The position numbers and the translations under genes are program-made. This document shows positions 15,390 through 20,517 of a DNA stretch of 64,000 nt, one piece after another (position 1 is the stretch's first letter; each line of letters starts with the position of its first letter). The notes beneath the pieces are model-generated. The model was not told the DNA's origin, did no database searches, and saw only the letters and a list, made by a program, of their open reading frames with translations. The DNA is from Verrucomicrobiota bacterium. Its GTDB lineage: Bacteria > Verrucomicrobiota > Verrucomicrobiia > Chthoniobacterales > Terrimicrobiaceae. The stretch lies in NCBI GenBank assembly GCA_017305195.1, contig JAFKMU010000037.1, positions 62,001-126,000 on the forward strand, written 5' to 3'.

Positions 15390-16151
15390 ATGACCGACGA
15401 ATCCTCCCATCCGGCCTTCCCTGCCAACACGTACTGCGGATACCTCCGCCATGATTTTCAGCTCGATGAAACCACGATCACGCTGGTCGAGCCGCGTGAA
15501 CCCGTGCCGGGACGGCGCTGGGTCTGGAGGGCGGAGTTTTTCGATGCTTTTCCCGCCTTTGATCTCGAAATGCTGCGGCGCGGGTGGTGGCTGGCCTACA
15601 TGAATGTCGGCAATACTTTTGGGTGTCCATCGGCGATGGATCGATTCGATCTTTTTTACGAGGAACTGACCGGCAGATACGGATTTCACCGCCGCCCGGT
15701 GCTGGAGGGCCTGAGCCGCGGAGGGCTGTATGTTTACAACTGGGCGGCGCGCAATCCCGGGAAAGTCGGGCTGATTTACGCGGACAATCCTGTATGTGAT
15801 TTCAAGAGCTGGCCCGCTGGCCGGGGTTCGGGACCGGGGAGCGTGGAGGACTGGGCAGCCTTGTTGCGATGCTATGAGTTTGCCTCCGAGGACGAGGCCC
15901 TGTCCTGGAGGGGGAATCCGCTCGATCAGGTCGAGACCATCGTGCGTGCGGGCATCCCGCTCGTGCATGTGTACGGCGATGCCGACGAGGTCGTGCCGTG
16001 GGAGGAGAATACCGGAGCGATGGCCGGGCGCGTCCAGGCGCTCGGGGGCTCCATCCAGACGTTCTGCAAGCCGGGGGCCCTTCACCATCCTCACGGTCCG
16101 GAGAGTCCGGCGGAGCTGGCCGACTGGGTAATCGCCCGCGCCCGCGACTAG
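15390..16151 (+). CDS. Alpha/beta hydrolase
   Basis: Serine hydrolase of the alpha/beta fold, 253 residues, no signal peptide. The nucleophile elbow is GLSRGG with Ser109. GDADEVVP around 196-203 gives the acidic residue, and HHPHG at 232-236 the catalytic His. These are the three triad positions expected for esterase/prolyl-oligopeptidase-like enzymes. The order of motifs and the extra N-terminal strands resemble acetyl-xylan or sugar esterases annotated in polysaccharide loci, but the substrate cannot be fixed. Its stop overlaps the stop of the convergent LacI gene by 4 bases. Confidence 0.82.
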   Translation: MTDESSHPAFPANTYCGYLRHDFQLDETTITLVEPREPVPGRRWVWRAEFFDAFPAFDLEMLRRGWWLAYMNVGNTFGCPSAMDRFDLFYEELTGRYGFHRRPVLEGLSRGGLYVYNWAARNPGKVGLIYADNPVCDFKSWPAGRGSGPGSVEDWAALLRCYEFASEDEALSWRGNPLDQVETIVRAGIPLVHVYGDADEVVPWEENTGAMAGRVQALGGSIQTFCKPGALHHPHGPESPAELADWVIARARD

Positions 16152-17167
16152 CGCCGGGCGGGACAGGATGGGCCATCGCGCCAGGTCCCGGAGATAAGGG
16201 TGAGGCGGGGATTCTCCGGCAGGCCAAACTGGTTGTGCAGGATCTTCGAGGCGACTGTCTCCAGGGTCATGCGCCCCAGCTCCACATTGGGCTCGTCGAC
16301 CCCGGCGTAGAAGGGGTCCGTGGGACGGACGAGACAGACGAGGGCGAGCTTGTCGGGGACTCTGATCTTCAGTTCACCCAGCCAGATCATCTCATGGCCG
16401 ATGAGGGTGAGGAGCACCTCGGGGCGGGTCTGCCGGAGCCATTTCTGAAACGCCTGCGGAGAGGTGTCGTCGGGGTTGCCGTAAAAGACCGGCGTGCGCT
16501 GCCCGCCAAAATACTCATGTTCGCACTGGGCGAAGCCTCCCAGCCATCGGGAGGGTTGGTCCGAGAGGTTATGCCGGGGCAGGCAAAGGCTGATTCTTTG
16601 AAATCCTCGGGCAATGAGATTGCGGTAGGCCAGCATTACGTTGGCATGATGGTCGTGCGCCACCCGGTCTGTCGCGACCGGCCAGGAGTACCCGGTGGTC
16701 GCGCTGGCATAGCGCTCCCACTGGAAGGAGATCCTCTGTTTCAGGGACAGGAAGGGAGCAGTTAATACAATCCCCTTGATGCCCCGGGAGAAAAGGATCG
16801 AGTCGATGCGGCTCGGGGACATCTTTGGGGCGTGCAGGTAGAAGGTCTCCGTATAAAAGCCCAGTTCGTCGGCGCGTTGGAGTATGCCCTGGCGGTACTC
16901 CTGGTAGACGTGAAGGGTGGGCCATTCCTCCGGAGCTGCCGCATCGACCAGCAGGCCGACGCAGCTTCTGTCCCGCAGGGGGCGACCGGATCGGATCTGA
17001 TTCATTAAGGACGAAACATAAGCATTTGGCCGGTAGGCCTGCTTTTGCACCTCAGCCTCGATAAGAGCCTTGGTTTCCGGCGGAATGGACCGGTCTCCGC
17101 GCAGGGCGCGCGAGACGGTCGACTGGTTGATTCCCAGCGCCCTGGCGATGGCCCGTTGATTAGGCAT
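16148..17167 (-). CDS. LacI family transcriptional regulator 1
   Basis: DNA-binding repressor or activator of 339 residues. The helix-turn-helix is at the very N-terminus (RAIARALGINQSTVSRALRGD), with hinge region YRPNAYVSSLMNQIRS, then a periplasmic-binding-protein-like ligand domain (CVGLLVDAA, IKGIVLTAPF, DKLALVCLVRP). The two other LacI genes here share the hinge pattern YRxNxxVxSLMxxIRS, the RxIxGIxLxP stretch and a C-terminus with GxWxxG, so the three form one subfamily. It is divergent from the PEP-CTERM fusion gene with a short 66-base gap containing repeated half-sites (17166-17195). It probably controls that gene and the downstream lyase-like genes in response to a sugar. Confidence 0.9.
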   Translation of the reverse strand: MPNQRAIARALGINQSTVSRALRGDRSIPPETKALIEAEVQKQAYRPNAYVSSLMNQIRSGRPLRDRSCVGLLVDAAAPEEWPTLHVYQEYRQGILQRADELGFYTETFYLHAPKMSPSRIDSILFSRGIKGIVLTAPFLSLKQRISFQWERYASATTGYSWPVATDRVAHDHHANVMLAYRNLIARGFQRISLCLPRHNLSDQPSRWLGGFAQCEHEYFGGQRTPVFYGNPDDTSPQAFQKWLRQTRPEVLLTLIGHEMIWLGELKIRVPDKLALVCLVRPTDPFYAGVDEPNVELGRMTLETVASKILHNQFGLPENPRLTLISGTWRDGPSCPARR

Positions 17168-17195
17168 GCGTTACGCATCGTGATGCGTGATGCGT
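17166..17195. promoter_or_regulatory. Clustered ATGCGT half-sites, candidate LacI-1 operator
   Basis: Four copies of one 6-base half-site lie within 30 bases: ATGCGT at 17166-17171, its complement ACGCAT at 17173-17178, then ATGCGT at 17183-17188 and 17190-17195. The inner pair forms a perfect 7-2-7 palindrome ACGCATC-GT-GATGCGT (17173-17188). The first half-site overlaps the LacI-1 start codon. The position between the divergent genes fits autoregulation plus control of the fusion gene. Confidence 0.5.
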
Positions 17196-17233: not shown

Positions 17234-19921
17234 ATGCAGTTTCCCCTAACGCCTCCATATCGTTGCCGCCTGACGAAATCTCCCGTCGCGGCGGTACTTA
17301 AGCCAACCGTTCTGGCTGCGTGCATCGTTGCGCTAATGGGTCAATCCCTAAACGCTTCCTCGGTGACCTGGGATGGCGGGGGAGCCAACGCCCTGTGGGG
17401 AACGGCTAATAACTGGGATACGAATACTCTCCCGGCCAGCGTGGATGACATTACCTTTGGTTCGGGCTTTACCTCGGGCAGCCCGAGCCTTGGGGGAATA
17501 GACTATACGGTGAACTCGCTGGCGTTCAATGGTTCCACCGCGATCTCGCTCCTGACGGGAAGCGGCTCTCCGACCATTACGCTGACCTCGGGCCTGCTGA
17601 CGAAGACGACGGCGGCGGCGGTGACGATCGCGCCAAACATTCTTCTGGGCGCAGATGCAGTCTGGAGCAACACATCGACAGCCACTGCCAATGCGCTCAA
17701 GGTGACAGGCAGCATATCGGACGGAGCGGGATCATATGGATTGACCGTTGCGGGTGGCGGTCATGTTTGGCTTTACGCGAGCAACAGCTTCGATGGCGGG
17801 GTGACGGTTAACTCCGGTAACCTCGGCGTATATAACAACGGGGCATTGGGAACTGGTACGCTCAAGATCCAGGGCGCTTCAGCGGTCTTTTACACCGCAG
17901 ACACGATCTCGAATGACATCGTGTTCAACAGTCCCACGGGCTTTACCGGCTTTTATTCCGGCTCCTACAAGTCGACGACGAATAACTTCTCGACGACCTT
18001 TACCGGGAGCATCACCGGGGCGATGAACAACCAGCAGCTCCGGGTGGGGGGCAATGCACGGACGTGGATATTTGGAACGATCAATCTGACGGGCATGCAG
18101 TCGCAGGGCCTCCAACTGGTGCCGGAAGAGGCATCGGGCAGTTCATCCTACATTTTTTCGTCAACCCCGACCCTGAGCAACGGCCGCATCCAGTTGGGAG
18201 CGACCTCTGCGGCAGGAGCCCAGGGCAATCTCCTCGTCAATACCGCCACGACTTTCAATGTGACCCGCATCACGCAGAACAGCGGTGGTGGCAAGGATAC
18301 GATCGGCGGCATTCACTCATCCGGCACGGCAACATTCTCGCAGTCGGAAGGCATCCTGCTCAACGACGTGGCGGCTGGCCAGGTGAACCTGATCACCCTG
18401 AACGCAGGAGCGACCACGGACTTTGCCTCGCTGCTCGACGATGGGGCGAACTCGGTGGGAGTGACGATCAACGGCACCTTTCGCCAGGTCGATACGGCGG
18501 CGTCCGCAAATCAAAATGCGGCGGTTTACATGACCCAGGCTCCGACCGGAAAAGTGCGGCTGAGCAAGTCCACCGGCAATACTTATGACGGCGGAACGGT
18601 GGTCTCCGCCGGGACGTTGCTCGTGGCTAATACGAGCGGATCGGCGACCGGCACCGGCAGCGTGTCGGTGGAAAGCGGTGCCACCCTGGGCGGTACGGGC
18701 ATCATCGCTCCCGGTACAGGCGGCGCGGTATCGATGAAATCCGGCGCCACCCTTGCTCCGGGCGAAGGCATCGGACAGATCCGCTTCAATGGAGCCGGCA
18801 CGGCGGCGGCGGTGCTCTCTCTGGAAGCCGGCGCGGCGTTTTCCTTCGATCTGGGCGCGCCCGGAACCAGCGACTCCGTGGCGATGTGGAACTACTCCCT
18901 GGGCGATCTGGTGCTCAACGGCAATGTGGTCAACTTCACCAATCTCGGCGGGCTGGCGGAGGGGACTTACACGCTCTTCTCCTTCTTCTCGGACAGCGGG
19001 ACGACGCTCACCGCGAGTGGATTGTCCTCGGGGTTGACGATTGGCACCGGGCTGGAATCCTATAGCGGCAGCCACTTTGTCTATGGCCCCGACTCGGTCA
19101 GCCTGGTCGTGGCGGTGCCGGAGCCATCGACTATTTGGCTGCTGGTCGCCGTGGGCGTGCTAGGTTTGTGCAAGATGAAGATGACGTCGGTCAGTAATGG
19201 ACGGAGTCTTGCCTTCGGCTTTCGCAAGGTAAACGGGTTTACCCTCATGGAGGTGCTGGCTGCGGTGGCGGTGATCGCCTTGCTCGCCGCGCTGATCCTG
19301 CCTGCGATGCAAAACCTCCGGCAGAAGGGATTTTCCATTCTTTGCCTCCAGAACCTTCGGACCCTGGCGGTGGCCTACAGCCAGTATCGGGCGGATCGCG
19401 ACGGGCTGCCCCTGCCGCGCGGCGTGACCTCGACCGATCCTGATTCAGAGAATGGGCATAACTTCGCCGGGATCAGCCTGCTGAGGCAGTACTATCAGGG
19501 AGGCGCGGGACCTTATGTTTTCACTTCCAAGGGGAAGTATATCGAGGTGAAGACCGAAAAGTGCCCGATGTCGGCCATCCGTAAGGAGACCACCACGGCA
19601 AACTATAACTTCATCGCGAAGGATAACTACCTGAGCTACACGGGAAATAATGCGGTCCGCATGGACTTGTATTTTTCCAATCACTCCAAGACCCCGCTGA
19701 TGTGGGAAAGCTGGTCGATCAACTGGGGGGCCAATCCGTACATGCCTATGAGGCACTCCGGCAAGGTCAACATGGCCTTCCTCGACGGGCATGTGGAAAG
19801 CATCGCGGGCACGGATGGCCGACTTTACAAGGGATATATCGAGTCCATCTACAAGACCGGAAATGTGGATGAAACAAAGCAGGGCAGCGGCATCGCTCTG
19901 GCCCGCGAAACTTATCCCTGA
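17234..19921 (+). CDS. PEP-CTERM beta-strand-repeat protein fused to an H-X9-DG pseudopilin
   Basis: One uninterrupted frame of 895 residues that joins two normally separate proteins. I chose ATG 17234 because GGAG sits 9 bases upstream and a signal peptide follows (VLKPTVLAACIVALMGQSLNASS). Residues about 40-625 are a Gly/Thr/Ser-rich autotransporter-associated beta-strand repeat protein (SVTWDGGGANALWGTANNWD at the start; YDGGTVVSAGTLLVANTSG later). At 19115 comes the PEP-CTERM signal VPEPSTIWLLVAVGVLGL plus CKMKM, where such proteins end, but translation runs on into a prepilin leader (FRKVNG|FTLMEVLAAVAVIALLAALILP, Gly at about 668) and a 249-residue pseudopilin ending with the H-X9-DG motif (HSGKVNMAFLDGHVES). 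An ATG at 19175 could start the pseudopilin alone. The cause may be true fusion, an indel or internal initiation; see findings. Divergent from LacI-1. Confidence 0.75.
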   Translation: MQFPLTPPYRCRLTKSPVAAVLKPTVLAACIVALMGQSLNASSVTWDGGGANALWGTANNWDTNTLPASVDDITFGSGFTSGSPSLGGIDYTVNSLAFNGSTAISLLTGSGSPTITLTSGLLTKTTAAAVTIAPNILLGADAVWSNTSTATANALKVTGSISDGAGSYGLTVAGGGHVWLYASNSFDGGVTVNSGNLGVYNNGALGTGTLKIQGASAVFYTADTISNDIVFNSPTGFTGFYSGSYKSTTNNFSTTFTGSITGAMNNQQLRVGGNARTWIFGTINLTGMQSQGLQLVPEEASGSSSYIFSSTPTLSNGRIQLGATSAAGAQGNLLVNTATTFNVTRITQNSGGGKDTIGGIHSSGTATFSQSEGILLNDVAAGQVNLITLNAGATTDFASLLDDGANSVGVTINGTFRQVDTAASANQNAAVYMTQAPTGKVRLSKSTGNTYDGGTVVSAGTLLVANTSGSATGTGSVSVESGATLGGTGIIAPGTGGAVSMKSGATLAPGEGIGQIRFNGAGTAAAVLSLEAGAAFSFDLGAPGTSDSVAMWNYSLGDLVLNGNVVNFTNLGGLAEGTYTLFSFFSDSGTTLTASGLSSGLTIGTGLESYSGSHFVYGPDSVSLVVAVPEPSTIWLLVAVGVLGLCKMKMTSVSNGRSLAFGFRKVNGFTLMEVLAAVAVIALLAALILPAMQNLRQKGFSILCLQNLRTLAVAYSQYRADRDGLPLPRGVTSTDPDSENGHNFAGISLLRQYYQGGAGPYVFTSKGKYIEVKTEKCPMSAIRKETTTANYNFIAKDNYLSYTGNNAVRMDLYFSNHSKTPLMWESWSINWGANPYMPMRHSGKVNMAFLDGHVESIAGTDGRLYKGYIESIYKTGNVDETKQGSGIALARETYP

Positions 19922-19953: not shown

Positions 19954-20517
19954 ATGAAAATCTCTCTTTCCTCCCTCCTCGCTGGAACCTTCGCTCTCGT
20001 AGTCCTCGCCGGAAACTCGCGGGCAGACACTCTCAAGATAGATTCTTTTGAAACCCAGCCGTTTCAATGGGTGGCGGCGATAGACCAGCCCGACCGGGCT
20101 CCGTTTACCAAGGAAACCGCTGCCGGAAAGATCAAGGAAGGCAATGCCTCCGCCCGCTGGTCGGTGTCGCAGCGGCCGTGGGCCATCATCAAGCATGCGC
20201 CGAAGGACTGGAGCCCCTACCAGGCGCTCAGCCTCTGGATCTATGCCGACAAGGCTAATGGCCAGATCCTGAACTTCTGGGTCTATTGCGATAGTGAAGG
20301 GCAGCCCAAGGGGCAGAAATATTATTTTCACAAGCTCGCAGTGGACTGGACGGGATGGAAGCAGGTCGTTCTGCCGCTGTCGGATTTCCACGCTGTGCGC
20401 GATCCTGCAGGTTGGGACAAGGTCACGGGATTCATGATCTCGGGCAAGGGCGGCGACGCCACGCCGCTGGCGGATAGCGTCCTTTGGATCGACGATCTCA
20501 AGCTGGAGTCCCTGTGA
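19954..20517 (+). CDS. Secreted sugar-binding-like jelly-roll protein
   Basis: Exported protein of 187 residues with a clear signal peptide (MKISLSSLLAGTFALVVLAGNSRA). The mature part (LKIDSFETQPFQWV, YQALSLWIYADKANGQILNFWVYC, GWKQVVLPLSDF, VLWIDDLKLES) is a beta-sandwich of the galactose-binding/CBM11/CIA30 kind, where the final DDL strand often coordinates calcium. Its stop overlaps the GTG start of the next gene as GTGA, so the two are translationally coupled. It is probably a stand-alone carbohydrate-binding partner of the large secreted protein that follows. The fold is inferred by eye; no ligand can be assigned. Confidence 0.65.
   Translation: MKISLSSLLAGTFALVVLAGNSRADTLKIDSFETQPFQWVAAIDQPDRAPFTKETAAGKIKEGNASARWSVSQRPWAIIKHAPKDWSPYQALSLWIYADKANGQILNFWVYCDSEGQPKGQKYYFHKLAVDWTGWKQVVLPLSDFHAVRDPAGWDKVTGFMISGKGGDATPLADSVLWIDDLKLESL

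Follow-up and report, generated by a model that had tools for sequence, protein, structure and literature searches.

A PEP-CTERM passenger and an H-X9-DG pseudopilin encoded in one conserved open frame in a genus of Verrucomicrobiota

PEP-CTERM proteins, the substrates of exosortases (PF07589, TIGR02595; Haft et al. 2006, PMC1569441), combine a signal-peptide-like start, a repetitive passenger, a PEP motif, a hydrophobic helix, and basic residues, with an exosortase encoded in the genome. It is established that basic residues on the cytoplasmic side come after the helix and that the tail normally lies at the extreme C-terminus; in the 2006 survey, fewer than 10 residues follow the motif in 87% of PEP-CTERM proteins, and the few long-tailed ones were suspected to be non-functional (PMC1569441). 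The fused gene reported here has all of these elements, but its tail is internal and is followed by about 250 more residues, which form a second protein with a processing signal. The second protein resembles the prepilin-type H-X9-DG proteins (TIGR02532 and TIGR04294; DUF1559-like) in its GFTLMEV sequence, long helix, and H-X9-DG motif, and has dozens of relatives in its own genome. In contrast to that family, its prepilin leader is not N-terminal but would be an inner loop of a larger membrane protein. The third comparison is with pairs of adjacent PEP-CTERM and pseudopilin genes in Verrucomicrobiota, which share the gene order and strand of the fusion, often lie 8-50 nt apart, overlap in one case, and in many cases are in the same frame. 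However, apart from the two fusions described below, every in-frame pair found is broken by at least one stop codon. In the literature searched, no paper combines PEP-CTERM with pseudopilin, PEP-CTERM with H-X9-DG, or Verrucomicrobia with prepilin; two papers combine PEP-CTERM with prepilin.

The fused gene was found in a window of 64,000 nucleotides (the whole stretch analysed) from a soil bacterium of the Verrucomicrobiota. It lies on the forward strand at positions 17234-19921 and encodes 895 amino acid residues in a single open frame, counted from the ATG at 17234. The stop-free frame itself reaches from before 17045 to the stop codon at 19919-19921, and its upstream extension overlaps the start of a divergent LacI-type gene. 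In a comparison of three species, dN/dS is 1 or more upstream of 17234, as for a sequence without coding constraint, and falls to about 0.08 in the passenger and about 0.05 in the pilin half. Since the constraint begins there, the ATG at 17234 is the likely start of the gene. In order from the N-terminus, the gene encodes a signal-peptide-like start, a passenger with beta repeats, a PEP-CTERM motif with its helix, a basic linker of 22 residues, the helix of a prepilin signal (G|FTLMEV), and a pseudopilin domain with the H-X9-DG motif. The N-terminal segment (MQFPLTPP...KPTVLAACIVALMGQSLNASS; 17234-17360) was read by eye and resembles a signal peptide. An autotransporter-type beta-strand repeat at 18545-18625 (residues 438-464) matches PF12951 and TIGR02601 with E values of 0.0003-0.001, slightly below the curated cut-offs.

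The PEP-CTERM motif and the first membrane helix (VPEPSTIWLLVAVGVLGLC; 19112-19168, residues 627-645) match PF07589 with 21.3 bits against a cut-off of 20.7 (25.5 bits in the genome scan) and TIGR02595 with 16.2 against 16; the VPEPSTIWLL sequence starts at 19115. In all three species the motif lies away from the extreme C-terminus, and the frame continues for about 250 residues beyond it. The basic cluster that follows the helix is weak, as CKMKM replaces RRR. The linker (KMKMTSVSNGRSLAFGFRKVNG; 19169-19237) has five lysine or arginine residues and no aspartate or glutamate; the predicted cleavage site for prepilin peptidase, G|F, marks its end at about 19235. The prepilin-type N-methylation motif and the second membrane helix (GFTLMEVLAAVAVIALLAALILPA; 19223-19300) match PF07963 at residues 664-688 (21.8 bits, cut-off 21.2) and TIGR02532 at residues 667-689 (21.3 bits, cut-off 16.3). 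Thus, the prepilin motif sits at residue 664 of the fused frame rather than at an N-terminus; it would have a short leader only if the product started at the ATG at 19175. The original prediction, which placed the PEP-CTERM motif and the prepilin site at 19115 and about 19235 of one frame, gave the correct coordinates for matches that score above the family cut-offs. It also had the protein ending in an H-X9-DG motif; the motif is present at 19751-19804 (TIGR04294, residues 840-857, 26.8 bits against a cut-off of 19) and is followed by a few dozen residues before the end of the protein. A predicted model of the C-terminal part (mean pLDDT 62.8) has two helices at model residues 31-50 and 71-121, the latter with a pLDDT of about 76-93 over most of its length and the remainder being of low confidence. 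A fold search of the PDB with this model gave no significant match, the model confidence being too low for such use.

Two sister species of this genus (genomes G001 and G002) were found to carry an identical open frame of 970 codons. The pseudopilin half is 95% and 98% identical to that of the window in G001 and G002, respectively, and the passenger is 89% and 94% identical. Among the three species, the linker has two or three residue differences, the remaining changes being silent, and the PEP motif and its helix have no amino acid change. Purifying selection spans the passenger, the linker, and the pilin. While the original prediction allowed that a wrong base might hide a stop codon, the identical open frame in three species and the bias towards synonymous change across the junction refute this; nor are the homologues always separate, as they are fused in both sister species. 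Within the fused gene, synonymous sites have diverged about twice as much in the passenger as in the pseudopilin half.

Is this the only such gene? I found a second fusion in the same genome (G000) on contig C67 (22763-21810, minus strand), detected by PEP-CTERM and pilin matches that share one open-frame length. Neither this fusion nor the general gene pairing described below had been noticed in the original prediction. The passenger of the second fusion is unlike the first and has T5SS/PEP-CTERM repeats (the TIGR04393 scores are those of the copies in the sister species), and its junction, VPEPDAVVLLVAGLIVIAVGLRRKPSKAVKRPCCGCSGSVPARDASRSIGG|FTMIEI, leads into another H-X9-DG-type pseudopilin. 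The PEP-CTERM and N-methylation scores are near or below the cut-offs, and the basic cluster after the helix reads RRK or WKKPKK. The orthologues in both sister species are likewise fused. Their linkers of 25-30 residues changed in length by whole codons, are otherwise strongly diverged, and are free of stop codons in all three species. In G001 and G002, the linker contains no ATG, GTG, or TTG, so the pseudopilin lacks an ordinary start codon of its own; it would be made solely within the fusion in these two species unless a rare start codon is used. Since the passengers have no obvious homology and the two pseudopilins are only about 25% identical, the two fusions are most simply explained by two events and probably arose independently. 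As three related species have kept the arrangement, which originated at two different loci, the fusion goes well beyond what chance would produce; it is confirmed to be real, and is neither an error nor a decaying gene. The C67 fusion also has a Cys-rich linker and the C-terminus CPCGCGGTGGV.

Above cut-off, the genome (5.1 Mb) has more than 90 PEP-CTERM tails and about 115 prepilin motifs. In 12 cases, a PEP-CTERM motif is followed on its own strand by a pseudopilin motif no more than 400 nt away, against 0.45 expected from random placement, a simple null that ignores gene density and operon structure. In five pairs examined closely, the gap from the PEP-CTERM stop codon to the pseudopilin start is 8-50 nt. 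In another pair (G000:C46:22809-22962), about 35 nt are shared by the two genes in different frames, which may represent a stage on the way to fusion. A tandem profile (A1), partly built from artificially joined neighbours, was run over three overlapping genome sets, drawn from the order (213 genomes), the class (384), and the phylum (388). Among the best 14-27 candidates per genome, all within the phylum, the only full-length matches free of stop codons were the two fusions of this genus, and weak fusions could escape such a survey; about three dozen other in-frame tandems among these candidates have at least one stop codon each.

As for the origin of the fused gene, the original prediction was right that a TGA at 19176-19178 overlaps an ATG at 19175-19177, the ATG being in the frame of the gene and the TGA in the +1 frame. 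The proposal that two genes formerly overlapping as ATGA were fused is partly borne out: the 12 adjacent pairs and the overlapping C46 pair support an origin from close neighbours, while descent from an ATGA overlap gains no support, as no unfused orthologue of either the passenger or the pseudopilin half was found in the compared genomes. The nearest relative of the passenger (G005, contig C156; 53% identity over about 200 residues) does not run into a pseudopilin. A programmed +1 frameshift into the TGA at 19176 was also considered, and no evidence for it was found.

What does the fused gene make? I lean towards the reading that it encodes a polyprotein folded as a membrane hairpin, with the two cleavage signals on the correct faces of the membrane and the two parts separable by exosortase and prepilin peptidase. 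The signal peptide would send the passenger to the periplasm, and the PEP-CTERM helix would cross the inner membrane from the outside inwards. The basic linker would remain in the cytoplasm, where prepilin leaders are located, and the prepilin helix would cross back, placing the folded pseudopilin domain in the periplasm. With this topology, exosortase would meet the PEP motif on the periplasmic side of the membrane, and prepilin peptidase would meet the G|F site on the cytoplasmic side. Since each site would lie on the face expected for its enzyme, both cuts may be possible. After both cuts, a single message would yield the surface passenger and the pseudopilin as free proteins in equal amounts; the two may act together in secretion or surface display. 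This reading was reached because the joined helices would form a hairpin with the sites on the correct faces, the charge of the linker fits, and the model has two helices. The linkers have 5-8 lysine or arginine residues against 0-2 aspartate or glutamate residues and are flanked by two hydrophobic helices, as would suit a cytoplasmic loop. An exosortase (PF09721) is encoded in the genome with an E value of 2.9e-43, and similarly in both sisters; each of the three genomes also has a prepilin peptidase (PF01478) and eight matches to PF00437 (T2SS/T4P ATPase). Counting for the polyprotein are the frame and selection in three species, the second fusion, its start-free linker, the linker charge, the presence of both enzyme families, and the 12 pairs against 0.45; counting against it are the non-terminal PEP tail, the weak CKMKM cluster, the marginal scores of the C67 fusion, and the internal ATG of the fused gene, and both cleavages are predicted ones.

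The internal ATG leads to a different explanation, in which one frame gives two products: the pseudopilin would be made mainly from the ATG at 19175 (or 19181), and the in-frame link would be a by-product of close packing. A start at 19175 would yield a leader of normal length (MKMTSVSNGRSLAFGFRKVNG|F). A run of 31 nt (19148-19178), just upstream of and over this ATG, is identical in the three species, and a weak AGGT motif resembling a ribosome-binding site lies 9 nt upstream of the ATG (19162-19165). The junction (19139-19235) has the lowest silent variation in the gene, where 4 of 28 codons carry silent changes; the corresponding numbers are 252 of 514 for the passenger and 62 of 203 for the pilin half. 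The deficit is clear against the passenger and modest against the pilin half, parts of which also have fairly low silent variation. When the codons of the passenger and junction were shuffled, a window with as few as two silent changes occurred in 169 of 2000 trials, the lowest real window having one. These features suggest, without proving, a translation start at 19175, and since the junction is conserved around it, the gene may make both the fusion and some free pseudopilin. However, the full-length product must also be made because there is no stop codon between the parts in any of the three species, and in two species the linker of the second fusion is free of ordinary start codons. I consider it unlikely that the internal start is the main source of the pseudopilin.

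Another explanation is a stable hybrid that exosortase no longer cuts. It would remain as one hairpin, or be cut by prepilin peptidase alone, leaving the passenger anchored in the inner membrane, or the hybrid would serve as a pseudopilus-associated adaptor. The position of the PEP tail away from the C-terminus and the weakness of the basic cluster agree with this. In contrast, the PEP and prepilin motifs are intact in three species at both loci, and the PEP motif and helix of the fused gene are unchanged in amino acid sequence; a stable hybrid appears quite improbable.

A sequencing error or a decaying pseudogene is very improbable: in G002, a one-base homopolymer difference near the start of the second fusion moves the signal peptide into another frame, which indicates that single genomes can mislead, but the fused gene has an open frame of equal length in three independent assemblies, ruling out sequencing error as its source, and a low dN/dS. 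This one-base difference (contig C11, locus at about 289-340) separates the signal peptide from the rest and may be an error or a real lesion.

On the polyprotein reading, the fusions may be seen as Rosetta-stone evidence for a partnership across Verrucomicrobiota, in which many PEP-CTERM passengers have a dedicated pseudopilin, the exosortase and pseudopilus pathways jointly bring passengers to the surface, and the fused pairs are doubly processed hairpin polyproteins. This generalization is tentative and I hold it to be doubtful. The fusion bears on how PEP-CTERM proteins cross the outer membrane and on the role of the H-X9-DG pseudopilins, of which these bacteria have dozens. Its conservation and twofold origin, together with the genome-wide pairing, make a direct link between exosortase substrates and pseudopilins testable, and the fused protein offers a single molecule for assaying exosortase and prepilin peptidase together.

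The neighbours of the fused gene encode a GH31 enzyme, an alpha-L-fucosidase, and a protein with a family 11 carbohydrate-binding domain (CBM11; 19954-20517, forward strand; PF03425, 38.7 bits, above the cut-off), suggesting that carbohydrates are used at the surface. The C67 fusion adjoins a gene for a PF01497-type periplasmic binding protein, so the common feature of the two fusions is the protein architecture and not the substrate. Upstream of the fused gene, the divergent LacI-family regulator gene (16148-17167, reverse strand; PF00356, 30 bits) is separated from it by a region with a perfect 16-bp palindrome (ACGCATCGTGATGCGT; 17173-17188). The palindrome lies within a 23-nt run (17172-17194) identical in the three species and is a candidate operator for this regulator.
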